Both the position numbers and the translations under genes were made by a program. Below the pieces are notes generated by a model, which was given only the letters and a program-made list of their open reading frames with translations, ran no database searches and was not told the DNA's origin. Shown piece after piece: positions 5,496-50,449 of a stretch of 52,117 nucleotides of DNA. Positions within the stretch are counted from its first letter, which is position 1; each line of letters opens with the position of its first letter. Source of the DNA: Polyangiaceae bacterium (lineage in GTDB: Bacteria > Myxococcota_A > Polyangia > Polyangiales > Polyangiaceae); contig WQZB01000029.1 in the NCBI GenBank assembly GCA_009780955.1, forward strand, positions 1 to 52,117, in the 5' to 3' direction.

Positions 5496-6674
5496 ATGCA
5501 AAATGCACAGCAGGTGGATGACTTGAACGCACTCTGCACCATCCGCGAAGACGGTGACGCCATCATCGTTCTCGACCAGACCTGCCTGCCGGAACAAACT
5601 GCCTTCGTGCGACTAACTTCGCTGGCCGAGGCAGCGCAGGCAATTCGCACCATGCAGGTGCGCGGCGCACCGCTGATCGGCGCGACCGCAGCCTATGGCG
5701 TAGCGCTAGCCTTGCGCGCCGGTATTGCGCTCGCAGAAGCTAGCGAAGTCCTGGCAGCGACGCGGCCAACCGCAGTCAATCTGCATTGGGCCCTTGGGCG
5801 CATGAAGCGCGCGCTCGAAAAATCACCCGCAGGCACCTGTCCCGATTGCGCCGCCGATTGCGTTGACAGGGCGTGGCAGGAAGCGCGGGCCATTGCGCAT
5901 GAAGATGCCGAAGCGAATGCTGCCATTGGCCGATACGGATTGCCATTGCTAGCCCGCTTTCAAGTTGCCGCGAGGTCGAGGCGGTCGGCGAGGAGCGGAC
6001 CGGAACAGCCTGCTGCGGCTTTGAGGACCGCACCGCAGCCGCCAACGAAGAGATCGCGTCAAATCGAAAGCGGGCTGGAAGGCACGCTGCGCAAGCCCAT
6101 TGAGGTGATGACCCACTGCAATGCCGGCTGGCTGGCAACTGTCGCTCATGGCACGGCCCTGGCGCCGATCTACGCTGCCCACGCTGCGGGCATTGCCCTG
6201 CACGTTTGGGTTTCGGAAACCCGCCCGCGCAATCAAGGTCTGCTCACAGCCTGGGAACTGCGCCAGGCAGGCGTTGCGCATACCCTAATTGCCGACAACG
6301 CGGCAGGGCTGCTCTTGATGCAGGGCAAGGTCGATCTCGTCATCGTGGGCGCCGATCGCATCGCTGCCAATGGTGATGTCGCCAACAAAATCGGCACTTA
6401 TCTCAAGGCGCTGGCAGCGCACGCGCATGCGATTCCCTTCTATGTCGCCGCGCCAGTTTCCACTATCGACTTCGACTGTCCGAACGGCGCGGCAATCCCC
6501 ATTGAAGAGAGGAATGCCGCCGAGTTCGGTAAACCAGCGAGCCGGGGCGATACGCCGATCGCCAATCCGGCATTCGATATAACGCCTGCTGCACTGATTT
6601 CCGGCATCATCACCGAACAGGGTGTATTTTCGCCCAAGTCGCTGCCCAATTTACTGGCGGATATCCAGCGATGA
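5496..6674 (+). CDS. mtnA: S-methyl-5-thioribose-1-phosphate isomerase with an in-frame repeat insertion
   Basis: Isomerises 5-methylthioribose-1-phosphate (and in some species 5-deoxyribose-1-phosphate) to the ribulose-1-phosphate form. Conserved blocks are VRGAPLIGATAAYG (about 54-67), THCNAGWLATV with catalytic Cys208, WVSETRPRNQG, and VGADRIAANGDVANKIGTY with catalytic Asp287. Typical MtnA has about 340-370 residues; this one has 392 because residues 153-193 are an Arg/Pro/Ala-rich insert encoded exactly by a palindromic repeat (5951-6076) found elsewhere in the window. Removing it leaves about 351 residues with continuous homology from GRYGLPLLA to GLEGTLRKPIEVMTHC. The frame remains open, so the enzyme may tolerate the insert as a surface loop. 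It overlaps the downstream aldolase by 4 bp. Confidence 0.93.
   Translation: MQNAQQVDDLNALCTIREDGDAIIVLDQTCLPEQTAFVRLTSLAEAAQAIRTMQVRGAPLIGATAAYGVALALRAGIALAEASEVLAATRPTAVNLHWALGRMKRALEKSPAGTCPDCAADCVDRAWQEARAIAHEDAEANAAIGRYGLPLLARFQVAARSRRSARSGPEQPAAALRTAPQPPTKRSRQIESGLEGTLRKPIEVMTHCNAGWLATVAHGTALAPIYAAHAAGIALHVWVSETRPRNQGLLTAWELRQAGVAHTLIADNAAGLLLMQGKVDLVIVGADRIAANGDVANKIGTYLKALAAHAHAIPFYVAAPVSTIDFDCPNGAAIPIEERNAAEFGKPASRGDTPIANPAFDITPAALISGIITEQGVFSPKSLPNLLADIQR
5951..6076 (+). repeat. Full copy of dispersed palindromic repeat, inserted in frame within mtnA
   Basis: Near-perfect terminal inverted repeats, AGCCCGCTTTCAAGTTG at the left and the reverse complement of AGCCCGCTTTCGATTTG at the right, enclose about 90 bp with further internal complementarity. 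The reverse complement of 19797-19918 aligns along the whole length, with two single-base insertions and scattered substitutions. The inserted span is 42 codons with no stop. The terminal bases covary between the two copies (GCCC/GGGC here, GACC/GGTC there), as expected of a maintained hairpin. No clear target-site duplication is visible. Confidence 0.85.
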
Positions 6675-7331: not shown

Positions 7332-7358
7332 CGTTGTACTCTTCATTGGAGTACAACG
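7332..7358. terminator. Hairpin 10 bp downstream of the aldolase gene, terminator-like
   Basis: A perfect 10-bp stem, CGTTGTACTC / GAGTACAACG, with a 7-nt loop starts 10 bp after the aldolase stop codon. No T-run follows on either strand, so it is not a canonical intrinsic terminator. It may be an mRNA-stabilising 3' hairpin, a factor-assisted terminator, or an operator for the downstream operon. Confidence 0.4.
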
Positions 7359-7392: not shown

Positions 7393-7432
7393 CTGTCGCC
7401 GGGATGTCACGGAGTCCTCACGCGGGAGTCAT
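7393..7432 (+). promoter_or_regulatory. PHO-box-like array of four 7-mers at 11-bp period
   Basis: Four heptamers spaced exactly 4 bp apart occur 107 bp upstream of the PstS-like gene: CTGTCGC (7393), ATGTCAC (7404), TCCTCAC (7415) and GAGTCAT (7426). Against the PhoB half-site CTGTCAT, three match 5 of 7 positions and the third matches 3 of 7. The 11-bp spacing is the hallmark of PhoB binding. The genes downstream (phosphate-binding-like protein and phosphate-type porin) fit this reading. The match is imperfect and the PhoB consensus was taken from enterobacteria. Confidence 0.5.
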
Positions 7433-7539: not shown

Positions 7540-8760
7540 ATGAAACATCCGATTCTCTCGGGCGCGTGCGCTGCGGGCGTCGCGTTCGCGACGTCGTTGT
7601 GTGCTTCCGAGGCGATGGCTGCAGCATGCGTCGGCGATGCCGATAGCCCCACTGGTAATCCCGTTTACCTGGCGGGGTCGAGCGCCGCGAAACCCATTCT
7701 CAAAGAATTGAGTGCGGTTTTGGCCCCGCTCAACGTTCGCATCATTTATCAAAGCGTGTCGTCCTGCACGGGCTTAGGTGAAGTTACCGAGAGCACTCCC
7801 GACAAAACAGCAGGTATCTACTGGGATAACGGTACCGAGCTTACATGTGATGTCGACACCAACGGCGTCGTGCCAGACATCGGCATCTCCGATGTTTACG
7901 CGCCCACGTGCGATACCGTAACGATTCACGACGGGCAGAAGGACTTTCTGGGGCCCATCCAGATCATGACTTTCGTGGTGCCGTCGTCGTCGAAGGAGAA
8001 CTCGATCAGCGCCGAGGCCGCGCGTGTCGTTTATGGCGTCGGTGGTGGGGCCACGGGGTCTCTAGTAGTCACCCCATGGAACACCCAGGGCTTGATCTTC
8101 CAGCGCCCGACCACGTCGGGCACGCGCCGCATGATTGGAAAGGCCATTAATCTTAACGTCAATAGCTGGAATGGAACGGAGAAATCAGGCAGCGGCGATG
8201 TGCTCACGGCTGTGCAGGGCGCGAGTGCGTCGACGCCGGACGCCGCGATTGGCATTCTCGCAGCCGATCTCGCGGATACGTCCCGCGCGACCGTGAAGAT
8301 CCTCGCCTTCCAGCCGCAAGGTCAAAGCTGCGCGTACTATCCGGACTCGACCTCGCAGTCGCTCGACAAAGCCAATGTCCGCTCGGGTGTCTATCCGATC
8401 TGGGGACCGCTGCACCTGGTAACGAAAGTTGATGGCACGGGCCAGCCAGCGAACGACGACGTCAAAACAGTCATCAATTATCTGACGATGTCGAGCACCG
8501 CCATCGATGCTCCAGCGAAGAAGACGATGATCGATACGGCCGTTGCTGCACACACGATTCCGTGGTGCGCAATGAATGTGCAGCGCACTGGAGAGGTCAG
8601 CGCCAACGATCAGACTACCGCGTACAGCGCTCCCGAACCGTGCGGTTGTTACTACGAGTCCAAGGCAACCGGAGCCGCGTCTTCTTCGTGCAAGACGTGT
8701 ACGGCTGATACCGATTGTGGGAGTGGGAAGTGCCGTTACAACTACTGCGAGGCGAGGTGA
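7540..8760 (+). CDS. Secreted PstS-like substrate-binding protein
   Basis: 406 residues starting at ATG 7540, which has a purine-rich AAGAGAGG before it; the open frame extends upstream but without a signal peptide or ribosome site. A signal peptide (MKHPILSGACAAGVAFATSL, cleavage near AMAAA/C) leads into a periplasmic-binding fold. YLAGSSAAKPILKELSAVL matches the first anion-binding loop of PstS-type proteins and TSGTRRMIGKAI the second. A short Cys-rich tail (CTADTDCGSGKCRYNYC) is of the type common on myxobacterial exported proteins. It heads a nine-gene operon with a porin and TonB machinery but no Pst ABC permease. Phosphate is the likely but unproven ligand. Confidence 0.72.
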   Translation: MKHPILSGACAAGVAFATSLCASEAMAAACVGDADSPTGNPVYLAGSSAAKPILKELSAVLAPLNVRIIYQSVSSCTGLGEVTESTPDKTAGIYWDNGTELTCDVDTNGVVPDIGISDVYAPTCDTVTIHDGQKDFLGPIQIMTFVVPSSSKENSISAEAARVVYGVGGGATGSLVVTPWNTQGLIFQRPTTSGTRRMIGKAINLNVNSWNGTEKSGSGDVLTAVQGASASTPDAAIGILAADLADTSRATVKILAFQPQGQSCAYYPDSTSQSLDKANVRSGVYPIWGPLHLVTKVDGTGQPANDDVKTVINYLTMSSTAIDAPAKKTMIDTAVAAHTIPWCAMNVQRTGEVSANDQTTAYSAPEPCGCYYESKATGAASSSCKTCTADTDCGSGKCRYNYCEAR

Positions 8761-8990
8761 TGACCATGAAACTCAAGACCATTCTGTTCGTTGCCTCCGT
8801 TCTCGCAACGGGCCTCGTTTCCGTCGTCGCATGCAGCAGCTCGTCTGATGACGGCCCGGTGAACAACCAACCCCCGGTGGCAGATTCGGGCTCTGACACG
8901 TCGACCGACAACGGCTCATCCACGACATGCACCAACTCCTTCGACAACACGCGCATACCGGGTTGGCCCAACGTTTCGTTGCCACAATGA
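8760..8990 (+). CDS. Small lipoprotein
   Basis: 76 residues, start ATG 8760 sharing one base with the previous stop (TGATG). A lipoprotein signal ends at VVAC|SSSS, followed by a low-complexity Ser/Asp/Thr-rich linker and a short terminal segment with one further Cys. No domain is recognised. Tight coupling to the PstS-like gene suggests an accessory or anchoring role in the same envelope complex. Confidence 0.65.
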   Translation: MTMKLKTILFVASVLATGLVSVVACSSSSDDGPVNNQPPVADSGSDTSTDNGSSTTCTNSFDNTRIPGWPNVSLPQ

Positions 8991-9070
8991 ACAATCCGAG
9001 CTTCGTCCCAGCGTGCGTTGCGTGCGCTGGGGCGAGCGGTCCTCACGACTTTCGCACGTAAGTCAGATCG

Positions 9071-10612
9071 ATGCGCTTTACATCGAACCGCTCGGTGTTT
9101 TCCGCCGTCTTCACCGTCGCTTTGCTTTTCGCGCGCACGAGCCGCGCGCAGGCAACGAACGACGATGACGAACTCGTTGTCCCTTCTGCGCCCGCGACCG
9201 ATTCTCCTGCAACACCCGGAACTCCGGCAACTCCGGCGGCACCCGAGCAAGCGCCCGCTTCTCCACCTGCGGTACCTGAGGCCCCGGCGAATGCACCTAC
9301 CGCTCCCGCGAGCCCGCAGCCTGCAAACCCGTCCGCGGATGCAAATGCCGAGTTGCTCGCTCGCATCACGAACCTCGAGAACGATGTCAAGGCTGCGCGC
9401 GAAGAATCCAAGGCAAGCATGCGCCTCGTTGATCTCCTCGCGCCATTCGCGGTGACCGGATACCTACAGACCGAGTACCAGACGAGCCAAGCCTCCGAAG
9501 ATCAACTCGGGCAGGGTGGCGTTCTGTTGAACCGTGACAGATTCACGTTGCGCCGTGCGCGCGTTCGCCTCGACGGCGATTACAAGTACGCGGCGCTCCA
9601 GATGGAAACGGATGGCAACACCAAGAGTGGCCCCGAGTTCCGAATGCTTCACGCCTTCGGCACTCTCAAGCTTCCGGGCGCCGATCGAAGCGTTCCACTT
9701 GCCGCTGTCACGATGGGCCTCTTCGATACACCCTTCGGCAACGAGCTCACCGAGTCGCCGCGTTTGCGCTGGTTCATGGAGCGCTCGACAGCTTCGCAAG
9801 CCTTCTACGCATCCGAGCCCGATGTCGGCGTGAAGTTCCACGGTGGCATTGGGTTTGTTCGGTGGGACATCGCGGTGATGAATGGTGAGCCGCTTGGCAA
9901 CAAGAATGGCTTTCCGGGTCTGTCACCTCACGCTGCGAAAGACGTTCTGTTCCGTATCGGTGTTGACACGCATCCTCGCGAGGATCTTGCCGTGTCGGGC
10001 CACATCTCCGCTCTTCGTGGCAAAGGTTTCCATCCAGGGTCGGATGCCACAAAGGCCACCATCCAATGGAACGACGCCAACGAAGACGGCGCCGTCCAGT
10101 CTACGGAGCTTTCCGGAATTCCCGCAAGAAGCGCGACGCCTTCGCAGCTTTTCGATCGCTGGGCTGTTGGAGCCGATCTTCAGTTGCAGCTTCGCACGGC
10201 GCTCGGCCTCTCATCGTTCAACGGTGAGGTCGTCATCGCGAGCAACTTGGACCGCACGCTCTTCGTTGCCGATCCGGTTGTAACCGGGGTCGACTCGCGC
10301 GAGCTCGGATTTTTACTTGGCGTCACTCAGGAGATCACGAAGTGGGGTGTCGTTGGTTTCCGCTTCGACCACTACGATCCGAATGCCAACTTCTTCGACA
10401 AACGCGGAGGAAAACTCATTCCGACCTCGCAGGCGATCAATACCTTCTCACCGATGATCGGCGCCGTCCTTCCCGATCCATCTCTCAAAGACCGCGCGCG
10501 ACTGCTCCTCCAGTACGACATCATCAAGGACAAACTCGCACGCGATAGCCGCGGACTGCCGACCGATCTCAAGAACAACGTCCTCACACTCCGCTTGCAG
10601 GTGTCGCTGTGA
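9071..10612 (+). CDS. Outer-membrane porin of the phosphate-selective O/P type
   Basis: 513 residues. A signal peptide (cleavage near TSRAQA) is followed by a long Pro/Ala/Thr-rich linker (about 35-85) and a short coiled-coil (AELLARITNLENDVKAAREE), as in trimeric porins that anchor to peptidoglycan. The barrel begins with FAVTGYLQTEYQ and has alternating strands such as NRDRFTLRRARVRLDGDY and YKYAALQMETDG, resembling the OprO/OprP family. It ends in VLTLRLQVSL, fitting a C-terminal barrel strand. The Arg-rich strand RFTLRRARVRL could line an anion-selective pore. Its place between a PstS-like protein and ExbBD/TonB suggests it is part of the same uptake system. Family call is good; selectivity is inferred. 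Confidence 0.75.
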   Translation: MRFTSNRSVFSAVFTVALLFARTSRAQATNDDDELVVPSAPATDSPATPGTPATPAAPEQAPASPPAVPEAPANAPTAPASPQPANPSADANAELLARITNLENDVKAAREESKASMRLVDLLAPFAVTGYLQTEYQTSQASEDQLGQGGVLLNRDRFTLRRARVRLDGDYKYAALQMETDGNTKSGPEFRMLHAFGTLKLPGADRSVPLAAVTMGLFDTPFGNELTESPRLRWFMERSTASQAFYASEPDVGVKFHGGIGFVRWDIAVMNGEPLGNKNGFPGLSPHAAKDVLFRIGVDTHPREDLAVSGHISALRGKGFHPGSDATKATIQWNDANEDGAVQSTELSGIPARSATPSQLFDRWAVGADLQLQLRTALGLSSFNGEVVIASNLDRTLFVADPVVTGVDSRELGFLLGVTQEITKWGVVGFRFDHYDPNANFFDKRGGKLIPTSQAINTFSPMIGAVLPDPSLKDRARLLLQYDIIKDKLARDSRGLPTDLKNNVLTLRLQVSL

Positions 10613-11571
10613 TCGCGCGCGCGGTCTCAGTCTTCGCATTCGCTCTTTCGATCTGCGCTGCGTGCGGCGGTCAAGATGCGCCGAGCGGACTCGATGAACC
10701 GATGCGCGTTCAGAGCGGGCAGTTCATCTCGGGCGAACTTCCCGGCAGCCCACCTGGCACGGCGGGCACGTCTGGTCCCGACGATCTTCGTGTGACGAGC
10801 ATCGTGTACTCCAATCGCATCGTTCTTCCAGGACAGGCGGGCAAGAAGCTCAGTGGCCGCGCCAGCAATCGTGCTTCGGCGGTCGGTCTTCGCTTGGCCG
10901 ATCTTGGCAGTGGCTACTGGGTCGTGCCGATCGGTGCGCCCGATCCGCAGTTTCCAGGAGAGCTCACGTGGGAAGCGGACACCGATTTTGCGCTCGCGGC
11001 AAGCGCATTTGCGGGGTTTCACGCTCTGCGTGTGGTTGCCATCGACGCTGCCGGTGTTGCAGGCGAACAGAACGAAGTCAACATGTGTCTCGCTTCACGT
11101 GAGCCCGACAACCTGAATGCGTGCAATCCGAACACGCCGCCGCCCGACGTCGTCGTCTCACTCTTTTGGGACGCGGCGGTCGATCTCGATCTGCGCGCGG
11201 TTCTTCCCGGTGGGATCAGCGTGGATCCGAAGCATCCGCTCTCCGATCCAACCGCCGACGGCGGAGCGCAGTCGCCCGATGTTGCCTTCATCACGCGTGA
11301 TTCACTTGCCGGTTGCGTCGATGACGGACTCCGTCAGGAAGATCTCGTTTGGCAAAAACGCCCGACTGGCACCGTTGATCTCTATGTCCAACTCGCGAAC
11401 GCGTGCGGGCGCCCGTCGACCAACTTCACCTATGTCGTCTTCGAAGCCGAAGGCGACGTGCCGAACCGCCATCTCGTGGAGCACTTCCGCGTGAGCGGAC
11501 GCATCGTCAATCCGCTCTCCGACAACGAGAGCAACGTGCCGCCACTCTACGTGGCTTCCTACAGCTTTTGA
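10609..11571 (+). CDS. Lipoprotein with a C-terminal YfaP/DUF2135-like domain
   Basis: 320 residues with a GTG start overlapping the porin stop by 4 bp. The lipoprotein signal ends SICAAC|GGQ. After a short disordered segment, an immunoglobulin-like region (about 55-160) is followed by VVSLFWDAAVDLDLRAVLPG, which resembles the YfaP/DUF2135 motif (W-x-x-x-x-D-L-D-L). Several Cys (CLASREPDNLNACNP, LAGCVDDG, NACG) suggest disulphides in the periplasm or on the surface. No enzymatic motif is visible. The operon suggests a structural or ligand-capturing partner of the porin and receptor. Confidence 0.6.
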   Translation: MIARAVSVFAFALSICAACGGQDAPSGLDEPMRVQSGQFISGELPGSPPGTAGTSGPDDLRVTSIVYSNRIVLPGQAGKKLSGRASNRASAVGLRLADLGSGYWVVPIGAPDPQFPGELTWEADTDFALAASAFAGFHALRVVAIDAAGVAGEQNEVNMCLASREPDNLNACNPNTPPPDVVVSLFWDAAVDLDLRAVLPGGISVDPKHPLSDPTADGGAQSPDVAFITRDSLAGCVDDGLRQEDLVWQKRPTGTVDLYVQLANACGRPSTNFTYVVFEAEGDVPNRHLVEHFRVSGRIVNPLSDNESNVPPLYVASYSF

Positions 11572-11598
11572 ACCTCATTACCGAAAAGGATTGCCACC

Positions 11599-12330
11599 AT
11601 GCTTGTCGAACGACTCCTACGCATCGCGCTGCTCGGCAGCTCGTGGGTCATGTATCTCTTGCTCATCCTGTCGGTCTACTCGATCGCCGCGATGATCGAA
11701 CGCGTTCTATACTTCAGAAAGAACAGCGGTGACGTCGACGCGCTTGCCGATGCGCTCGTTGGGCAGCTTGCGAAAGGCGACACAGAAGGCGCGAAGAACG
11801 TAGCCGCGGAGAGTCGAGCGCTCGAAGCGCGCGTCATCGGTCCCGCCCTCGATCTCTTCGATGGTGGTCCGGAGGCCTTCAGCGATGCGGTCGATGGGCA
11901 ATTCGGACGTTGCAAGAAAGATCTCGAGCGCGGGATGACCTACCTCGGCACGCTCGGCAGCAACGCTCCGTTCATTGGTCTGTTCGGCACCGTCATCGGC
12001 GTTATCGAAGCTTTCCACCAGCTTGGCGACGGTGCGAACAAAGCGGCGATGGGCAACGTCATGAGCGGCATTGCCGAAGCGCTCGTCGCTACCGGCATTG
12101 GTCTCTTCGTCGCCATTCCGGCTGTCATCGCGTACAACGTGATGCAGAAAAAGATCGGCGCAGTCGAAACGAACATCGCGATGATCGCAAAGCAGATCAC
12201 CGCGACGATGAAAGCGGCCGATCGTGCGGAACGCATCACCGATGCGCACAAAGAGGTCAACACCGCGTCGAACGACATCTTCATTCCGGCGCCGCACGCA
12301 AGCAGTTCATGCATGGCCGAGGCAGAGTGA
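11599..12330 (+). CDS. exbB: ExbB/TolQ-family proton-channel subunit
   Basis: 243 residues with three membrane helices: MYLLLILSVYSIAAMIERVL (about 18-37), SNAPFIGLFGTVIGVIEAF (about 117-135) and EALVATGIGLFVAIPAVIAY (about 160-180). The motifs are those of the MotA/TolQ/ExbB family, including the conserved Thr residues of helices 2 and 3 and the small-residue packing. With ExbD it forms the inner-membrane motor that converts proton motive force into work on TonB. It starts 27 bp after the lipoprotein gene and 3 bp before exbD. TolQ is the alternative, but the adjacent TonB and receptor favour ExbB. Confidence 0.9.
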   Translation: MLVERLLRIALLGSSWVMYLLLILSVYSIAAMIERVLYFRKNSGDVDALADALVGQLAKGDTEGAKNVAAESRALEARVIGPALDLFDGGPEAFSDAVDGQFGRCKKDLERGMTYLGTLGSNAPFIGLFGTVIGVIEAFHQLGDGANKAAMGNVMSGIAEALVATGIGLFVAIPAVIAYNVMQKKIGAVETNIAMIAKQITATMKAADRAERITDAHKEVNTASNDIFIPAPHASSSCMAEAE

Positions 12331-12333
12331 GCG

Positions 12334-12744
12334 ATGGGTGCGCAGCTTGGTGGCAGCAAAAGTCGTGACGGCATCGTGGGCATCAACGTCACCCCAATGG
12401 TCGACGTCGTGCTCGTACTACTCGTCATCATGATGGTCTCGGCAACGTACATCGTCGCGCAGAGCCTGAAGGTGGAACTTCCCAAGAGCGCTAGCTCTGA
12501 CGAAGCCGTGACTTCGGTGGCGCAAATCAGCGTGTCGAAAGAAGGCAATTACTTCTTCAAGCAAGAAGCCGTAAGCGAAGACGAGCTCGTCGCCAAGCTT
12601 CGCGAGGCGAGAGCTGGGGGCACGGAGCTGAACGTCGTCATCAGTGCCGATACGACTGCGCAGCACGGTCGCGTCGTGCACGTCATCGATCTCGCCAAAC
12701 GCGAGGGCATCTCGAAATTCGCGATCAACGTTGACCACGAGTAG
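12334..12744 (+). CDS. exbD: ExbD-family biopolymer transport protein
   Basis: 136 residues. Short cytoplasmic N-terminus, then one membrane helix GINVTPMVDVVLVLLVIMM whose Asp is the conserved protonatable residue of ExbD/TolR. A periplasmic domain of about 95 residues follows with the ExbD pattern, including VVISADTTAQHGRVVHVIDL near the C-terminus. It acts with the preceding ExbB and following TonB. Length is normal. Confidence 0.9.
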   Translation: MGAQLGGSKSRDGIVGINVTPMVDVVLVLLVIMMVSATYIVAQSLKVELPKSASSDEAVTSVAQISVSKEGNYFFKQEAVSEDELVAKLREARAGGTELNVVISADTTAQHGRVVHVIDLAKREGISKFAINVDHE

Positions 12745-12766
12745 CGCGCGCGGGGCGCGATCTCCG

Positions 12767-13489
12767 ATGAACCGAATCCAAATCATTCTCGTGGGTGGGA
12801 GCCTCGCGATTCACATCGGCGTGTGGGCATGGATGGGCGCTCTTCCAAAAGAGAGGAAGACGAGCAGCGTGGCCATTGCGCTCGCCGAGTCGACGCCGAA
12901 GAAGAAAACTGACGACGAAAAGCCACCACCTCCCGCCCCTGCGGCGCGCGCCGAACCACACGAGAAAGTTGCTGCGCCTGCGCCGAAGCCTGCACAGCAG
13001 AAGGCCGAGCCTCCTCCGCCGTCTGCGCCTCCGCCTCCCTCTGTGGGTGATGCGCCTGCAGCGATGGATGGTTTTGCCGATCTCGGCATGGCCATGGGCA
13101 GTGGAGGATCGATGGCAGTGCCCACTGGGCCTCGCCTCGCATCCGCGCAGCCGGTTGATTCAACGGTGAAGAAAGCCAAGGCGCTCGCTGCTGGTGCGGG
13201 CGACGAGTGTGCCGAAGATCCCGTCAAGCCTCGTCTCGACAAGCAAGTGCCACCTGCCTACTCGCCCGAGGCGCGCCAAGCGAACGTCGAGGGCGTCGTG
13301 AAGCTCGAGATCACAGTCGACGCGACGGGACGCGTGATTCAAGTACGCGTCGTCAAGGGACTCGGTTTCGGTCTCGATGAAGCTGCGGTGACCGCGGCGA
13401 AGCAGTGGTCGTTCAAGCCTGCCACGCGATGCGGCAAGGCCGTCTCTTACGTCATCAAGCCAGGCGTTCGTTTTCAGCTCGGATCATGA
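12767..13489 (+). CDS. tonB: TonB energy-transducing protein
   Basis: 240 residues from ATG 12767; an upstream extension of the frame overlaps exbD in a low-quality region and is rejected. MNRIQIILVGGSLAIHIGVW is the single membrane anchor with the conserved His face. Residues about 40-100 form the Pro/Lys/Ala-rich periplasm-spanning region. A C-terminal TonB domain (about 150-240) contains PPAYSPEARQANVEGVVKLE, VDATGRVIQVRVVKGLGFG and AAKQWSFKPATRCGK, the YPxxA / G / W-x-F-x-P signature of the fold. It shares a 4-bp ATGA overlap with the receptor gene, so it is very probably dedicated to that receptor. Confidence 0.9.
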   Translation: MNRIQIILVGGSLAIHIGVWAWMGALPKERKTSSVAIALAESTPKKKTDDEKPPPPAPAARAEPHEKVAAPAPKPAQQKAEPPPPSAPPPPSVGDAPAAMDGFADLGMAMGSGGSMAVPTGPRLASAQPVDSTVKKAKALAAGAGDECAEDPVKPRLDKQVPPAYSPEARQANVEGVVKLEITVDATGRVIQVRVVKGLGFGLDEAAVTAAKQWSFKPATRCGKAVSYVIKPGVRFQLGS

Positions 13490-16167
13490 CTTCGTTTCGT
13501 CTTCGTGTTCTTTGCGGTGCCGGCCTCTTCGCACTGGCTTTGGGGTTCACGCGCAGTGCCTTCGCGCAACCCGTGGCGCAGCCTGGTGGAGCGCGCGTCG
13601 GCGATCGAGATGCAACGGCACGAGTGATCAAGCCGCCGCGCATCGTGAAGTTCGTCGAAGCGGAGTATCCGCCAAGCGAGAAGGAAACGAGCAAGGAGGC
13701 AACGGTCGTTCTCTCGCTCGGCATCTCCGAGACAGGTGCGGTCGTCGCGGTCGTGGTGCAAGAGTCGGCAGGGCCCGCGTTCGACGTTGCGGCCGTGGCG
13801 GCTGCACGTCAGTTCATTTTCGAACCGGCTGAAGTGAACGGCAAGCTCATTCCAGTAAAGATCACCTACCGCTACGAGTTCGTCATCAAGCACGAGATGA
13901 TCAAGCGATCGAATTCGGACTTCCAGGGCGAGGTTCGCGACCGAACGACGAAAAAACCTCTTTCCGACGTAACCGTCACACTCGAAACCGGGCAGCATGC
14001 AACGACCGATGCGCAAGGACATTTCACGATCGCCGAGGTAACGCCGGGCGATCACACCGTGACGTTGTCGGGCGAGGGGCTTACACCAACGAGTACGCAG
14101 GAAACATTCGAGGCGGGCAAGAAGCTCGATGCAACGTACGACGTGGAGATCAAAGCCAATGTACCTGGCGACGACGACAGCGACTTCGAAGTCGTCGTGA
14201 CCGCTCCGCGCATCGGAAGGCAGGTTGTCTCGACGGAGATCCCGGCCGAGCAGGGGCGAAAGGTTCCGGGCACGCAGGGCGACGTGCTCAAGGTCGTTGA
14301 AAACCTCCCTGGTGTCGCCCGCTCTGCGGTCGGATCTGGCGCGCTCGTCGTGTGGGGCGCGGCGCCCGAAGACACACAAGTCTTCGTGGAAGGGATCCGC
14401 ATCCCGCGCCTCTATCACGATGGTGGCTACCGATCGGTCATTCATTCCGACATGGTCAAGTCCGTCGAACTCGTTCCGGGTGGCTACGGCGCATCGTACG
14501 GGCGTGGCATTGGCGGTCTCGTCAACGTACAGCTCCGACCGATTCCACAGGATCGCGTGCATGGCAGCGTGAATGTCGACATCATCGATGCATCGGCGAG
14601 TGTCAGTGCGCCCATCACCGACAAGCTCTCCGCTGCGGTTGCGTTCCGGCGCAGCCACCTCGATTCTGTTGTCAAGGCGGTGGGCTCTGGAGATGTCGCC
14701 GACGTCGTCCCGTTGCCGAAGTACTACGACGGTCAAGCGCGCATCGTCTACCAGTTCAACGCCAACGAGACATTCGAACTCGGCGGCCTCTTGTCCTCCG
14801 ACAACACCGACCACACGCTCCTTGGAGCCGATCCTGCTGACACGAAGCGCGAGTCGCAGGCGCTCGCGTTCGGTCGAGTCTACGGCCGCTACGAAAAGAA
14901 GCTTCCGACCGGTGACACGATCGTCCTCACTCCTTCATGGGGGAAAAATCATTCGCGCATTACCGACCGCTTTGGTACAACGCCCACAGAGCTCACGAGC
15001 GACGCGAACGTCTTCGGCTTTCGCGGCACCTATCGGGCGCAGCCAGAGAAATGGCTCGGCGTCTCGTTTGGTGTGGATATCGATGTAATGTCGAGCGCGT
15101 TTCGACGCGCGGGTTCCGTGAGCTCTCCGGCGCGCGAGGGAGACGTGCGTGTCTTCGGTCAGGCGCCGTCGGATCAAGTCAACGTGGACCGGTGGCACTC
15201 GGTCGTATCGAGTTTCGCTCCGTTCGCGGAGGCCGACGTAGGCCTTTTTGACGACAAGCTGCACATCGTGCCGGGTCTGCGTCTCGAGCCGTACATCATC
15301 GCCGTTGACAAGGTCACGCCGGTGAGCGGTGACGTTCCTCCCGTTGGTACGACCTCAGAGAAGACGGCCCTCGAGCCGCGCATTGCAATTCGTTATCAGT
15401 TCTCTCCGCGGCTGACGGCAAAGGCGGCTTTCGGTTTCTACCATCAACCGCCTGCGGGCGAAGATCTCTCCGCGGTCTTCGGCAATCCGAAACTCGGTCT
15501 CGAGAGCGCCATTCACTCGCTCGTCGGCACGGCCGTGAAGATCACCGATACGCTGAACGCCGAGGTCACGGCGTTCTATTCGGGCATGAGCGATCTCGTC
15601 TCGCGCAGCACGGCTCCAACGCCGCTACTCGCCCAAGCGCTCGTGCAGCAGGGCACTGGAAAATCGTATGGCGCGCAGCTTTTGCTTCGGCAGGAGCAGA
15701 TCGGCCGGTTCTTCGGTTGGGCGAGCTACAGTCTCATTCGCAGCGTGCGTACCGACGCGCCGGGGCTCGATGAGCGCCTCTTCGATTACGACCAGACGCA
15801 CGTGCTCACGATCGTTGGTTCGTACGATCTCGGGAAAGGTTTCGAGGTTGGTGCTCGATGTCGCTACGCCACTGGCTATCCGCGCACGCCCGTTGTTGGC
15901 AGTTTCTACTCGCCGCGCACCGATCGATTCGAACCCATCTTTGGTCGGCAAAACAGCGAGCGAATCCCTGCCTTCCGGCAGCTCGACGCACGCATCGCGA
16001 AGCGCTTCAAAATCGGTGCGACCGACGCAGAAGTTTATCTCGACGTGCAGAACGTAACCAATCACGCGAATGCCGAAGAGATCGTTTACAGCTATGACTA
16101 CAAGCAAAAAGCCTACATCAAAGGGCTGCCAACGCTGCCTGTCTTAGGATTCAAATGGACATTCTAA
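13486..16167 (+). CDS. TonB-dependent receptor with an N-terminal TonB-C-like domain
   Basis: 893 residues from ATG 13486 (overlaps the tonB stop). After a signal peptide (cleavage near AFAQ) comes an unusual TonB C-terminal-like domain (about 48-133: VEAEYPPSEKETSKEATVVL ... ARQFIFEPAEVNG). Next is a carboxypeptidase-regulatory-like beta-sandwich (about 147-222), a TonB-box-like EVVVTAPR (about 235-242), the plug domain (LPGVARSAVGSGALVVWGAA; RGIGGLVNV) and a large beta-barrel ending in GFKWTF. It should import a ligand across the outer membrane using the adjacent TonB-ExbB-ExbD. The duplicated TonB-C fold suggests it may contact TonB-like partners or peptidoglycan unconventionally. The ligand is unknown; operon context suggests phosphate or an organophosphate. 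Confidence 0.85.
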   Translation: MTSFRLRVLCGAGLFALALGFTRSAFAQPVAQPGGARVGDRDATARVIKPPRIVKFVEAEYPPSEKETSKEATVVLSLGISETGAVVAVVVQESAGPAFDVAAVAAARQFIFEPAEVNGKLIPVKITYRYEFVIKHEMIKRSNSDFQGEVRDRTTKKPLSDVTVTLETGQHATTDAQGHFTIAEVTPGDHTVTLSGEGLTPTSTQETFEAGKKLDATYDVEIKANVPGDDDSDFEVVVTAPRIGRQVVSTEIPAEQGRKVPGTQGDVLKVVENLPGVARSAVGSGALVVWGAAPEDTQVFVEGIRIPRLYHDGGYRSVIHSDMVKSVELVPGGYGASYGRGIGGLVNVQLRPIPQDRVHGSVNVDIIDASASVSAPITDKLSAAVAFRRSHLDSVVKAVGSGDVADVVPLPKYYDGQARIVYQFNANETFELGGLLSSDNTDHTLLGADPADTKRESQALAFGRVYGRYEKKLPTGDTIVLTPSWGKNHSRITDRFGTTPTELTSDANVFGFRGTYRAQPEKWLGVSFGVDIDVMSSAFRRAGSVSSPAREGDVRVFGQAPSDQVNVDRWHSVVSSFAPFAEADVGLFDDKLHIVPGLRLEPYIIAVDKVTPVSGDVPPVGTTSEKTALEPRIAIRYQFSPRLTAKAAFGFYHQPPAGEDLSAVFGNPKLGLESAIHSLVGTAVKITDTLNAEVTAFYSGMSDLVSRSTAPTPLLAQALVQQGTGKSYGAQLLLRQEQIGRFFGWASYSLIRSVRTDAPGLDERLFDYDQTHVLTIVGSYDLGKGFEVGARCRYATGYPRTPVVGSFYSPRTDRFEPIFGRQNSERIPAFRQLDARIAKRFKIGATDAEVYLDVQNVTNHANAEEIVYSYDYKQKAYIKGLPTLPVLGFKWTF

Positions 16168-17219
16168 TCATGCGCGCGTTGCGTGTGTGTGCTGTTGAAA
16201 TTGGGATTTTGGCTTTTGCGATTGGCATATCGGGTTGCAAACCCGATCTCGATGAGCGTGCTTCCGAGCTTGGTGCACCTGTACGGGTGCTTGCCGTACA
16301 AGCCGATCCCGCCGAGGGCGTGCCAGGAGACGCTGTGACGTTTCGCGCACTCGTCGTTGACGCTACAGGAACGGAAATCGAGGCGCCTGCTTCGTCGTGG
16401 GGCTTTTGCACGGCGCGAAAATCTCTCGCGGAGCTCGGGCCCGTGAGCCCTGCGTGTTACACGGCGGGCAGTGGTGCGCTTTCACCGCTTGGGTCGGGAA
16501 CGAGCGTGCAAGCAACGTTGTCGTCATCGGCTTGCCGCGATTTCGGACCCGAAGTCCCGCAGAGTAAACCTGGAGAATATGGGCGTCCGGTCGATCCGGA
16601 TCCCACTGGCGGCTACTACCAGCCGGTGACGTTCGTCGCGATGGCAGGGAGCGATTGGGTCACTGCAGTCGAGACGACGCGCATCGCGTGCGGTCTGTCC
16701 GGAGCTTCGTCCGATGACGTCATCACGTTCCGTCAGCGTTATCACCTGAACGAGAATCCTGGGGTGCTTCGCTTGCGCGCGACCGACGAAGACATCGAGG
16801 GCGAAAGCGCGCCGATCGCCGTTACTTCTGGGATGCGTGTAACGATGACGGTCGAGTGGCCAGCATGTCCGGATGTCGACGTGTGCGGAGACGGGATCTG
16901 CGGTCCAGACGAATCACAAGTCACGTGCACGGAGGACTGTGCAAAGCCAAATGGTTGCATGGGCGCCGAGCGTTATCTCGTCTACGACGCCGAGGCTCGA
17001 GGGCTCGTTGTCCATAGGGAGGCGATGAGCGTGTCGTGGTTCGCCTCGGCGGGCTCGTTCGATCAGGAGCGCACGGGTCGCGAGGCGGATGATCCAGCGA
17101 CGTCGAGCGACAACATTTGGCAGGCCCCAACGACACCAAGAATTGTCAAAGGTTGGGTGGTGCTGCGCGATGAGCGAGGCGGCACTGCATGGCAGCCTTT
17201 CGTTTTCGACGTGCGTTGA
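16155..17219 (+). CDS. Lipoprotein with Cys-rich CGDG motif
   Basis: 354 residues with the start overlapping the receptor gene by 13 bp. The signal ends AIGISGC|KPD, giving a lipoprotein. An Ig-like region (about 30-225) is followed by DVCGDGICGPDESQVTCTED, a Cys-rich motif common in myxobacterial exported proteins and probably disulphide-bonded, then a further beta-rich domain with VSWFASAGSFDQERTGR and WQAPTTPR. No catalytic site is recognised. As the last gene of the operon it may be a surface lipoprotein assisting ligand capture by the receptor, by analogy with SusD-type partners, although no SusD fold is apparent. Confidence 0.6.
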   Translation: MDILIMRALRVCAVEIGILAFAIGISGCKPDLDERASELGAPVRVLAVQADPAEGVPGDAVTFRALVVDATGTEIEAPASSWGFCTARKSLAELGPVSPACYTAGSGALSPLGSGTSVQATLSSSACRDFGPEVPQSKPGEYGRPVDPDPTGGYYQPVTFVAMAGSDWVTAVETTRIACGLSGASSDDVITFRQRYHLNENPGVLRLRATDEDIEGESAPIAVTSGMRVTMTVEWPACPDVDVCGDGICGPDESQVTCTEDCAKPNGCMGAERYLVYDAEARGLVVHREAMSVSWFASAGSFDQERTGREADDPATSSDNIWQAPTTPRIVKGWVVLRDERGGTAWQPFVFDVR

Positions 17220-19798: not shown

Positions 19799-19918
19799 CC
19801 GCTTTCGATTTGACGCGATCTCTTCGTTGGCGGCTGCGGTCCGGTCCTCAAAGCCAGGGAGGCTGTTCCGGTCCGGTCCTCGCCGCCGCCTCGACCTCGC
19901 GCCAACTTGAAAGCGGTC
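19797..19918 (-). repeat. Full copy of the dispersed palindromic repeat, intergenic
   Basis: 122 bp bounded by GACCGCTTTC and its exact complement GAAAGCGGTC, in the opposite orientation to the mtnA copy. Internal sequence (for example CGATCTCTTCGTTGGCGG) matches the mtnA copy. It begins inside the stop codon of the phosphatidyltransferase gene and ends 31 bp before the GtrA gene, so it sits within an apparent operon and its transcript would form a long hairpin. Confidence 0.85.
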
Positions 19919-19949
19919 TAACCCCAACTAGCCAAGAGGAATCATCCCA

Positions 19950-46756: not shown

Positions 46757-48250
46757 TTATTCCTTGTCCAATTTACCGACCAGGCTCAGCGTGAAGAATG
46801 CACCCATGTATTTGAAATGCGGGCGCACCTTCATGTCGATTTTGTACCAACCTGCGTCACCTGGCACGTCCGTCACTCTGATTTGTGCCTGACGCAACGG
46901 GCGTTTGCCGCGAACGGCGGGGGTTGGCGATTCCATATCGGCGACGTATTGGCGAATCCATTCGTTTAGCTCGGATTCGAGATCGCCACGCTCTTTCGCC
47001 GTGCCTATTTGTTCGCGCTGAATCACCTTCAGGTAGTGAGCAATTCGGCACGCCACGAACAGATAAGGAAGCTGGGTGCCAAGCTTGTAATTCAGCTCCG
47101 CCTCCTTGCCCTCGGTCGACTGACCGAACATTTTTGACTTTTGCACGCTGTTAGCGGAGAAGAATGCCGCGTTGTCGGAGTCTTTCCGGTACGTCAACGC
47201 AATGAAGCCCTGCTCGCTGAGCTCGAACTCGCGGCGCTCGCTTAGCAGCACCTCGGTTGGGATCTTGAGCTGTTCGGCACCCATGGCCGTGTATTGATGC
47301 AGCGGCAAATTGTCCACAGTGCCGCCTGCCTGTGGGCCGATGATGTTCGGACACCAACGGTATTTGGCGAAGCTGTCGGCCAGCCGTGTGGCGAATGCGT
47401 AAGTGCAATTGCCCCAGAGGTAGGCCTCGTGGTCGCCCTCTACGGTTTCCTGGTAGTTGAACATTTTGACCGGCGTGGTTGTCGGTCCGTACGGCAGACG
47501 CAGCAGGAACTTTGGGCAAAGAAGGCCGATGTAGCGTGAGTCTTCGGATTCGCGGAAGCCTCGCCACTTCGTGTATTGCGGTCCTTCGAAGAGCGCGTCG
47601 AGATCTTTGAGATTCGGCAGGCTCAAAAAATCCTTCATGCCAAAGAATTGCGGTCCGGCCGCGGCGAAAAATGGTGCATGTGCCATCGCACCGACGGCCG
47701 CCACCTTTTGCAAAAGCGCAATGTCTTGTGGCCCTGGCCCCACTTCGTAATTCGATAGGATGGCGCCGTATGGCTTTCCGCCAAATTGTCCGTATTCTGA
47801 TGAGTAGACAATCTTATAAAGACCACTTTTCGTGATTTCCGGCGCGTCTTCGAAGTCTATGAGAAGATCTTCTTTGGAGCAGTTGAGGAGTTCAATCTTG
47901 GTGTTCTCTCGGAAGTCGGTGCGATCGACCGCGAACTTGAGCCCGCGCCACGTCGACTCCAGTTTTTGGAAATCGGGGTTGTGGAGGATTTGGTCGACTT
48001 GCTTGGAGATTTTTGTGTCGAGCTCGGCGATCATCGCATCGACGAACGCACGGTCGATCTTTTCGGATGCATGCTTGGGCGTGAGAAGCTCGGTGACGAG
48101 CGCCTGAATCCCCCGTTTCGCGACGGCGTATCCATCGTCGGTCGGCGGGAGCTTCGTTTCGTTCAAGATGTCGTCCAGGAGCGAGCCTTCTGCAATGGAT
48201 ACGGAAGCGCCTTGCCTTTGCTCGAGCGTGCCGGATTTCAAGTCGCTCAT
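46757..48250 (-). CDS. tssC: T6SS contractile sheath large subunit TssC (VipB)
   Basis: 497 residues from ATG 48250 (a frame extension of ten residues lies in the intergenic gap). Family blocks: NPDFQKLESTWRGLKFAVD, GLYKIVYSSEYGQFGGKPYG, PFFAAAGPQFFGM, KWRGFRESEDSRYIGLLCPK, LPYGPTTTPVKMFNYQE and a C-terminal YLKVIQREQIGTAKERGDLE, ending in FTLSLVGKLDKE. It forms the contractile sheath with TssB, encoded 4 bp upstream. Full length and highly conserved. Confidence 0.95.
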   Translation of the reverse strand: MSDLKSGTLEQRQGASVSIAEGSLLDDILNETKLPPTDDGYAVAKRGIQALVTELLTPKHASEKIDRAFVDAMIAELDTKISKQVDQILHNPDFQKLESTWRGLKFAVDRTDFRENTKIELLNCSKEDLLIDFEDAPEITKSGLYKIVYSSEYGQFGGKPYGAILSNYEVGPGPQDIALLQKVAAVGAMAHAPFFAAAGPQFFGMKDFLSLPNLKDLDALFEGPQYTKWRGFRESEDSRYIGLLCPKFLLRLPYGPTTTPVKMFNYQETVEGDHEAYLWGNCTYAFATRLADSFAKYRWCPNIIGPQAGGTVDNLPLHQYTAMGAEQLKIPTEVLLSERREFELSEQGFIALTYRKDSDNAAFFSANSVQKSKMFGQSTEGKEAELNYKLGTQLPYLFVACRIAHYLKVIQREQIGTAKERGDLESELNEWIRQYVADMESPTPAVRGKRPLRQAQIRVTDVPGDAGWYKIDMKVRPHFKYMGAFFTLSLVGKLDKE

Positions 48251-48254
48251 TTTA

Positions 48255-48755
48255 TTAACCTCTTTCTTTCGGCGGAACACCGAGTTCGCGCATTAATTTG
48301 TCGCGCTGCTCAGCATCGCCGAGCAAAGCTTGCAGTTTCTTGCGAAACGCTGGCACGTTGCCGAGCGGGCTTTTGAGCGAGGTGAGCGCTTCGCGCAGTT
48401 CGAGAAGCTGACGAAGCTCCGGGACTTGTTGCGCTACCGCATCGGGCCCGAAATCCGCGAGCTTGGTGAAATGAAGCTTCACGGACAGCTGTTCGTCAGG
48501 CTCTCCTTCACTTAAAGCGTTCGGCACGGTCAAGTCGAGACGAAGATTGTGCTCGGCAAGGACTTGTTGGAAATTGTCTTTGTCGACGTTGACGGGTTTT
48601 CGCTCCTCGAGAGGACGCTCGTCGGGCTGGCCCGTGTAGTCGCCGACGAAAAGCATTTTCAGCGGCAGCTCGACCTCGGACTGACGGTCGCCGGTGTCAG
48701 GCTTGTAGGTGATGTTGACGCGTTCTTTGGGTGCAACGGATTGATCATCAGACAT
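48255..48755 (-). CDS. tssB: T6SS contractile sheath small subunit TssB (VipA)
   Basis: 166 residues from ATG 48755. N-terminal APKERVNITYKPDTGDRQSE and PLKMLFVGDYTGQPDERPLE with RKPVNVDKDNF are diagnostic TssB blocks, and KLADFGPDAVAQQVPEL lies in the core helix. The C-terminal helix (LQALLGDAEQRDKLMRELGV) is the ClpV-recognition region in related systems. Paired with TssC. 32 bp separate it from tssA. Confidence 0.95.
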   Translation of the reverse strand: MSDDQSVAPKERVNITYKPDTGDRQSEVELPLKMLFVGDYTGQPDERPLEERKPVNVDKDNFQQVLAEHNLRLDLTVPNALSEGEPDEQLSVKLHFTKLADFGPDAVAQQVPELRQLLELREALTSLKSPLGNVPAFRKKLQALLGDAEQRDKLMRELGVPPKERG

Positions 48756-48787
48756 GCTTGTAAACTCCAACTATAGCAGTGACGAGA

Positions 48788-50443
48788 TCAGTCATTCTGC
48801 CACCGCAATCGAAGCGCGGCACGCGGATCGACCGCGAGAAGCCTCTGGAAGACGGAGATTTCCGTGGAATCGCGAGACGGTACATTGGTAGATTCCGCAT
48901 GAATTTTGCGCGATGAAATGCGCATTGTCTTCAGAAAACCTTCGAACGCTTCGGCCGAGAGCGTGGGCTCCCATTGCTCGAGGGTCTCGGTGACCTGTGG
49001 GAGTATCCGCCCGTACAGAGCGAGTGCAAGGTCGATGCGCGCAGAGGCTTGAGCCTGCTTAGCTACTGCAAGATGCACGCGAAAGCGGCTGCGCGCGTCC
49101 GAGAGCCGTTCGGCGTTGGCAAGTGCATCGCCGAGCGCGTCGTCGACGTTGCCCGAAGCGAGCTCGGCGATCATGTCGCTCATAATCTTTTCTGAGGCAG
49201 GGTCGACGGCGTGAACCGCGCTTGGCACTGGCCCTGTTGCGCTGCCCCCCACGATTGCCATTTCCTGCTCGATCCAATCGAGCGTGTCGGGCGCAGCAAA
49301 GGGAGTGCCCGTCGAGAAAAGCAGATGCAGAATGCCCGGAGCGCGCTTGAGAAAGGCGACGAGCTCACGCCCCACGGCTTGCCGAGCCGCCCGATACTCT
49401 GCCCCCTTTTTCTCGAGTGCAATGGCTGAAAACCGATGCGGATCGAGCCAGAACACGTGGTTTCCGACGGCGTCTTCGGCAGCGTCGAGAAGGGCGTCCC
49501 ATTGGCCTGCATGCAAGAGCGTCGTGATCTCTTCGCGATCGTGATCTTTGGGGCCACGCAAAAACGTCTTGCCCTGCTCGACTTCTGGCGCGTGTTCGAC
49601 CGTGAGCCATGCAGCAACACGCGCCATGCGATAAGGCCATGGTGAAGTTGGTGCCAGGTGGCGCGCGTGACGGGCGATAGCCGCGAGAGGCTCTCGCAAT
49701 TTTCGTGCGCTGTCTTGGGCGCTGTCGAGCCCGGAAAGCGACGACGGGTCGAATGCAATGTTGGCGATTTCCGGGGCGATTGCGGGGGCAGTTTCTGGCG
49801 CGATTGCGGGCGGCGGGGCAGCGGGCGTTGGCCCGTTTGGCTTGTTGGATGTTGCGGCAGAGGGAGGTGGGGGTAGAGCCACCGGCTCTGGCAAATCTGG
49901 TAAGCTACGAATTTTCTCGCGTACCGACAGGCGTAAGGGTGAAATCCCAGGGTCTGCGTTTTGGAGCAGATCGGCAAAGGATGCTCCGGCCTCGGCAACG
50001 AGTGATTCGAGCGCGCGCACCGTGTCGGCTTCTGCAGGGCCAACAGGCATTGCGGTAACGCGTTTTGCCAGGGCTCGCCAGAGCCAATCGATCTGCCCAG
50101 CGCGGGCACGAATGCGCTTGAGCGGAGGATGAAGCAGAGGCCAATAGGCCTTGCTCAGCGCCACGCAAAGTGCAATTCCCTCGGCGACGCCGCGCCAGCC
50201 TTGCACTTGTGCCTTCGCAACTGCGAGCCACGTCATCGCGCGCAGATCTTTGGAATCGTCGCGGAGCACGCGCTCACACTCGGCGATGACATATGCCCAA
50301 TCGGGTGCTTCCGCGGTGAGTGCGGAAAGCTTTTCCAATTCTGCGCTGAGGCGCTCGAACCGCGGATCGTAAGCGAGGTCTTTGCCCGCAGGCGCGTCCG
50401 CCGAAATGGCCGCGAGGAGCGGGGAGGTGGGATCGAGCGCCAT
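48788..50443 (-). CDS. tssA: T6SS cap/assembly protein TssA
   Basis: 551 residues. The N-terminal ImpA domain (about 10-130) has the usual PAGKDLAYDPRFERLSAELE and DWAYVIAECERVLRDDSKDLR and VQGWRGVAEGIALC. A Pro/Ala-rich linker with a repeated PEIAPxxAPAI-like segment (about 195-225) follows, then a long C-terminal domain with a VasJ/EvpK-like region (about 235-540). TssA primes tail tube and sheath assembly and in long forms caps the distal end. Lies 6 bp from tssK and in the same minus-strand operon. Confidence 0.9.
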   Translation of the reverse strand: MALDPTSPLLAAISADAPAGKDLAYDPRFERLSAELEKLSALTAEAPDWAYVIAECERVLRDDSKDLRAMTWLAVAKAQVQGWRGVAEGIALCVALSKAYWPLLHPPLKRIRARAGQIDWLWRALAKRVTAMPVGPAEADTVRALESLVAEAGASFADLLQNADPGISPLRLSVREKIRSLPDLPEPVALPPPPSAATSNKPNGPTPAAPPPAIAPETAPAIAPEIANIAFDPSSLSGLDSAQDSARKLREPLAAIARHARHLAPTSPWPYRMARVAAWLTVEHAPEVEQGKTFLRGPKDHDREEITTLLHAGQWDALLDAAEDAVGNHVFWLDPHRFSAIALEKKGAEYRAARQAVGRELVAFLKRAPGILHLLFSTGTPFAAPDTLDWIEQEMAIVGGSATGPVPSAVHAVDPASEKIMSDMIAELASGNVDDALGDALANAERLSDARSRFRVHLAVAKQAQASARIDLALALYGRILPQVTETLEQWEPTLSAEAFEGFLKTMRISSRKIHAESTNVPSRDSTEISVFQRLLAVDPRAALRLRWQND

Positions 50444-50449
50444 GCCTTT

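Follow-up and report, generated by a model that had tools for sequence, protein, structure and literature searches.

The window analysed here, a 52,117-nucleotide stretch of DNA from a member of the Polyangiaceae (contig WQZB01000029.1 of assembly GCA_009780955.1), encodes a PstS-like protein, an OprP/OprO-like porin and a TonB-dependent receptor with its own ExbB-ExbD-TonB complex in a single unit, raising the question of what such a combination might import through the outer membrane, where passive porins are the generally assumed route for small anions. The nine genes lie on the same strand, with overlaps or short gaps between neighbours (Table 1), and the start codon of the small lipoprotein gene overlaps the stop codon of the PstS-like gene (8760). 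This bears out the packed nine-gene operon with three lipoproteins proposed in the preliminary description. The same description had stressed the lack of an ABC permease. This holds for the unit itself, within which no ABC permease or ATPase gene was found, but not for the genome, where a canonical PhoR-PhoB-PstB-PstS-PstC-PstA-PhoU cluster is present on a separate contig.

Table 1. Features of the operon and its upstream region, in window coordinates.
Feature	Position	Strand	Characteristics
Pho-box-like array	7393-7432	+	four heptamers, 11-bp spacing; moderate evidence
PstS-like oxyanion-binding protein	7540-8760	+	Sec signal peptide, cysteine-rich C-terminal tail; fold and pocket motifs
Small lipoprotein	8760-8990	+	low-complexity linker, conserved C-terminal segment
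OprP/OprO-like porin	9071-10612	+	N-terminal helical segment; AlphaFold model compared with solved structures
Conserved lipoprotein 2	10609-11571	+	motif VvsLxWDxxvDLDLxVvxPxG; found in the operon of complete loci
ExbB proton-channel subunit	11599-12330	+	PF01618 (MotA_ExbB), 3.1e-31
ExbD subunit	12334-12744	+	PF02472, 3.4e-30
TonB	12767-13489	+	PF03544 (TonB_C), 2.2e-18
TonB-dependent receptor	13486-16167	+	Pfam: N-terminal TonB_C, CarboxypepD_reg, plug, barrel
Conserved lipoprotein 3 (last gene)	16155-17219	+	kept in the operon of relatives

The genes surrounding the operon in the window comprise mtnA (methionine salvage), a class II aldolase gene and inositol genes, with no phosphate genes among them. 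The inositol-1-phosphate synthase gene that follows (17573) is probably not an operon member, since in the sister species lipoprotein 3 is followed by a gene in the opposite orientation. Two further features of the window were recorded in passing. A dispersed repeat of ~124 bp lies in frame within mtnA (repeat, 5950-6073; gene, 5496-6674), with a second copy, 93% identical, on the opposite strand at 19799-19920; 41 matches were listed in a genome search, alongside 323 first-look candidates, and the element resembles protein-coding palindromic or MITE-type elements. In addition, judged by eye, a group of minus-strand genes at 46757-51835 could belong to a type VI secretion cluster.

Within the operon, ExbB, ExbD, TonB and the plug and barrel of the receptor all pass Pfam cut-offs, the receptor domains with E-values of 1e-19 (barrel) and 1e-7 (plug) and accompanied by CarboxypepD_reg and N-terminal TonB_C domains. 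No Pfam family was matched by lipoprotein 3, and searches of the operon proteins against Pfam and NCBIfam returned no SusD family that would indicate a SusD-type lipoprotein partner. The small lipoprotein ends in a segment reading FDNxxRxPGWPN in the window and FLNxC...FDNxxRLP...LPPLP in relatives, nearly all of which carry a similar gene directly after the PstS-like gene.

The PstS-like protein and the porin score far under the family cut-offs at the sequence level, and both were therefore folded for structure comparison. The PstS-like protein reaches 28.8 bits against TIGR02136 (cut-off 206.6) and has no Pfam match. Its AlphaFold model (pLDDT 89.5) is closest to solved PstS structures (Z 26.8 for 4ecf and 26.5 for 4lat), compared with Z scores of at most 16.7 for ModA-type proteins and 15.1 for the sulfate-binding protein Sbp, and the fold thus backs its earlier identification as a PstS-like periplasmic protein despite the weak sequence score. 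The porin matches Pfam Porin_O_P with E = 0.19 and 11.4 bits, below the cut-off of 20.9. Its model (AlphaFold, pLDDT 75) predicts a 16-stranded porin fold closest to OprP (Z 28.1, 2o4v) and OprO (27.6 and 27.5), with other porins at 25.5 or less, in agreement with the OprO/P-like identity first assigned to it.

The pocket of the PstS-like protein comprises the motifs AGSSAAKP, SVSSCTG, IGISDVYA and RPTTSGTR, and these closely match the PstS encoded in the same genome, IGISDVYAP corresponding to IGSSDIFAP, RPTTSGTR to RAAGSGTR and GSSAAKP to GSSALQP. At the level of motifs, equivalents of the phosphate-pocket residues Asp56, Arg135 and Ser139-Gly-Thr are present as D118 (in IGISDVYA), R189 and S193-G194-T195, with D118 placed by motif because the hhalign alignment is gapped in the Asp region. 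PstS Asp137 is replaced by Thr; E. coli PstS mutants in which Asp137 has been replaced still hold phosphate in their solved entries (1qui, 1quk, 1qul).

A survey of gene neighbourhoods in the Myxococcota revealed that the arrangement recurs well beyond the window. The PstS-like protein was detected in 31 of 284 sampled Myxococcota genomes, and the order PstS-like protein, small lipoprotein, porin, lipoprotein 2, ExbB, ExbD, TonB, receptor and lipoprotein 3 was found in many genera and families, which indicates that the operon is not a chance arrangement. Lipoproteins 2 and 3 are kept in the operon of complete loci and relatives, and a shorter form of the operon lacks ExbB-ExbD and often TonB. 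The window receptor is 36-63% identical to operon receptors beyond the genus. A receptor-alignment scan of 84,980 species (one genome each), which matches short conserved peptides and which divergent relatives can escape, returned 54 loci, all labelled as or consistent with Myxococcota. These include Minicystis rosea and four Nannocystis genomes, as well as some loci labelled just Deltaproteobacteria or Proteobacteria. One Labilithrix locus (L147, 12547-22546) carries a pair of family operons in opposite orientations: one belongs to the sulfate type outlined below, the other to a third type with a GDTQ pocket.

Phylogenetic analysis showed that the family consists of two clades, that of the window tied to phosphate genes and its sister tied to sulfate genes. 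In a tree of the PstS-like protein from which the pocket columns had been removed, the phosphate and sulfate sets split with SH-aLRT support of 98. In the receptor tree, the sulfate clade has a support of 99 and the window falls within a strongly supported set of six that includes the PhoB-adjacent locus L097. The pocket follows this division for the most part: in sulfate-type proteins the SD of the Asp56 region is mostly changed to MG and the SGT is lost, but L049 and L051, which lie within the sulfate clade, retain both Asp and SGT, so the correlation between pocket and clade is not absolute.

In the group of the window, several operons adjoin phosphate genes. The operon of L122 is flanked by PhoU-PstS-PstC-PstA on one side and by DUF47-Pit on the other, that of L098 adjoins Ppx/GppA-PhoB-PhoR, those of L097, L106 and L110 adjoin PhoB, and that of L139 adjoins PhoB/PhoR together with two phosphoesterases (one of the phosphodiesterase family and a metallophosphoesterase), the PhoB assignments being best matches below the model cut-off (206-252 versus 296 bits). 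The operon of L103 adjoins ArsJ and its GAPDH, which form an arsenate detoxification pathway, arsenate being a phosphate analogue.

The sister clade presents a different set of neighbours. Sulfate ABC transporter genes adjoin the operon in L035, L047, L102, L105, L108, L136 and L138 and in a complete 10.3-Mb genome (L042/L151), standing upstream, downstream or divergent relative to it; in L035 the binding protein, CysT and the ATPase all exceed their NCBIfam cut-offs. Further neighbours in this branch include a sigma-54 activator, CysK, CysE and a cysteine dioxygenase-like gene. In four loci (L057, at 9375-10301, L104, L114 and L116) an SrpI-type 2A encapsulin and a cysteine desulfurase, a pair known as a sulfur nanocompartment (PMC8049743), lie beside the operon, and L116 additionally carries a rhodanese-HTH-cupin protein. 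The varied gene arrangements beside the operons argue for repeated linkage. An ABC transporter adjoining L049 that was first read as sulfate-specific proved to be a generic SBP_bac_11/6 system, and weak ABC matches in L045 and L137 were left out of the counts.

Overall, phosphate neighbours were found at 6 of ~18 loci in the group of the window and 1 of ~46 in the sister group (p = 0.0014), and sulfur neighbours at 15 of ~46 loci in the sulfate clade and 0 of ~18 in the phosphate group (p = 0.003), in Fisher tests that have approximate denominators, include cut contigs, represent one phylogenetically independent pair and carry no correction for kinship. The single phosphate exception is a sulfate-clade operon (L142) that adjoins a PhoB/PhoR-like pair. 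At the genome level, a sulfate-binding protein was present in 10 of 12 genomes encoding a sulfate-type PstS-like protein and in 2 of 17 other carriers (p = 0.0002), and the window genome lacks the sulfate ABC-binding protein.

Promoter regions were also compared between the two branches. The Pho-box-like array of the window (CTGTCGC-N4-ATGTCAC-N4-TCCTCAC-N4-GAGTCAT, 108-147 bp upstream of the PstS-like gene) scores highest when both strands of the 52-kb window (~104,000 positions) are searched for two, three or four PhoB-type heptamer repeats, and it is partly, if weakly, kept in the sister species. It resembles the site preceding the genome's own phoB as well as that of L103, and Pho-box scores are higher in phosphate-type than in sulfate-type genes (p = 0.02). 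A loose version of the motif yields 90 one-mismatch sites genome-wide, mostly away from Pho genes, with one directly upstream of phoB; among those examined, just the phoB and operon sites seemed relevant, and the Pho box was accordingly dropped as decisive evidence. Sigma-54 promoters (score >=12) were found upstream of 13 of the 33 sulfate-type genes and of none of the 10 phosphate-type genes (p = 0.016), and the window operon likewise has none. Sigma-54 activators were observed near the sulfate-branch operons of L035 (6591-7589), L040, L042, L107, L112 and L129, several of them without a recognised sensor domain. An inverted repeat conserved in the sister species, TTGTACTCTTCATTGGAGTACAA, lies upstream of the window operon at 7334-7356 and is possibly an operator.

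The PstS and OprP folds, the pocket motifs, the Pho-box-like array and the neighbours of its group make phosphate the best-supported ligand class for the window copy. The preliminary description had proposed TonB-dependent import of phosphate or organophosphate, and its choice of ligand class is retained here for this operon; the design itself is not phosphate-specific, given that in the larger branch of the family the links are to sulfate and cysteine genes. We consider it fairly probable that the operon constitutes the phosphate branch of an outer-membrane oxyanion-acquisition module of the Myxococcota, with hand-over to Pst and probable control by PhoB. Weighing against it are the Pho-box-like array being just partly kept in the sister species and not rare genome-wide, the window neighbours not being phosphate genes, the PhoB/PhoR-like pair beside L142 and the replacement of Asp137. 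On this reading the family as a whole serves as an oxyanion module, and genes elsewhere provide the permease that the unit lacks. The TonB-dependent receptor, drawing its energy from the operon's own ExbB-ExbD-TonB complex, would bring in phosphate or a phosphate-bearing ligand at the outer membrane, and the OprP-like porin would offer a passive route. The PstS-like protein would capture the anion in the periplasm and present it to the ordinary Pst ABC transporter encoded elsewhere, with the three lipoproteins probably tethering or capping the complex at the outer membrane and expression probably under PhoB. Ligand binding, the direction of transport, the receptor cargo, the hand-over to Pst and the regulation are here what we infer from these comparisons, which suggest that carriers spend energy pulling simple nutrient anions, or compounds carrying them, through the outer membrane.

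A stricter form of this proposal, in which the system is a TonB-powered outer-membrane transporter for free phosphate in the window branch and free sulfate in its sister, with a PstS-fold protein and an OprP-like porin repurposed within an energised complex at the outer membrane and the pocket re-tuned from phosphate to sulfate through loss of the aspartate, is conceivable but rather doubtful. The usual ligands of TonB-dependent receptors are large or scarce, and free phosphate would therefore be an unusual cargo. The same preference for large ligands speaks for an organophosphate system, in which the receptor would import phytate, a nucleotide, a phosphodiester or polyphosphate, and phosphatases encoded elsewhere would act in the periplasm to free phosphate, which the PstS-like protein would bind. 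The phosphodiesterase-family and metallophosphoesterase genes beside L139 also fit such a system, as do the Flavobacterium PusCD receptors, which sit with phosphatases and are proposed carriers of organic phosphorus (PMC8115612). Nonetheless, no hydrolase was seen within the operon in the mapped loci, and the sulfate transporters and cysteine synthesis genes of the sister branch point to a simple anion, leaving this alternative unlikely.

The neighbours of the sister clade (sulfate ABC transporters, CysK/CysE, cysteine dioxygenase-like and SrpI encapsulin/desulfurase genes), and the position of the window operon after mtnA and a class II aldolase gene, could alternatively be taken to mean that the window operon also serves uptake of sulfate or organosulfur, as its sister clade appears to do. 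Sulfur uptake for the whole family was entertained from the sulfate ABC neighbours, and was rejected for the window copy in view of the phosphate neighbours, the clade split and the pocket motifs. The window pocket is of the PstS type, its group has solely phosphate neighbours, the genome lacks a sulfate-binding protein and the operon lacks a sigma-54 promoter, all of which render a sulfur role very improbable. Least probable of all is an uptake or sensing system for a metal, siderophore or other non-oxyanion with borrowed PstS- and OprP-like parts, for which the classical role of TonB systems in iron uptake and the N-terminal TonB_C domain that the receptor shares with the myxochelin receptor model MxcH could be invoked, but in the loci read nothing for iron, heme or siderophores was noticed close to the operon, and the repeated occurrence of phosphate or sulfate genes beside it accords with an oxyanion.

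Should the oxyanion module operate as proposed, basic macronutrients would join the range of substrates of TonB-dependent import, through PstS- and OprP-like proteins coupled to TonB energy. Its paired phosphate and sulfate branches would provide a natural test of binding-pocket switching between the two anions, and several unannotated Myxococcota lipoproteins gain a likely function from the operon.

Each part of the system is of a known kind, and it is their combination, the restriction to Myxococcota in the searches reported here and the phosphate/sulfate pairing that are undescribed in the literature searched. The novelty first claimed for the design holds insofar as no published description of the nine-gene system was found in that literature, but Flavobacterium PusCD, in which TonB-dependent receptors and outer-membrane lipoproteins are induced by low phosphate (PMC8115612), is an earlier case of phosphorus uptake linked to TonB. 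Like PusCD, the operon pairs a TonB-dependent receptor with lipoproteins; unlike the operon, this Bacteroidota system comprises a SusCD-type pair and phosphatases, without a PstS or OprP component. The sister branch is comparable to the atsACBR-sftR-atsK-sftP sulfate-ester cluster of Pseudomonas, where the TonB-dependent receptor SftP is linked to sulfur acquisition and an ABC transporter (PMC3596284), but that cluster encodes sulfatases and a sulfonate-type ABC transporter and, as described, has no PstS-like protein, OprP-like porin or ExbBD-TonB of its own. The phosphate and polyphosphate porins OprP and OprO of Pseudomonas are the best structural match of the operon porin (Z 28.1 and 27.6), which differs from them in its ~15% identity, in scoring under the Pfam Porin_O_P cut-off and in belonging to a family that occurs in sulfate-linked operons too. 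With the Pst phosphate ABC system (PstS, TIGR02136) the operon protein shares the binding-protein fold and most pocket motifs; compared with Pst, the operon dispenses with permease and ATPase, its PstS-like family carries a cysteine-rich tail and inserts, and it adds a porin, a TonB complex, a receptor and lipoproteins.
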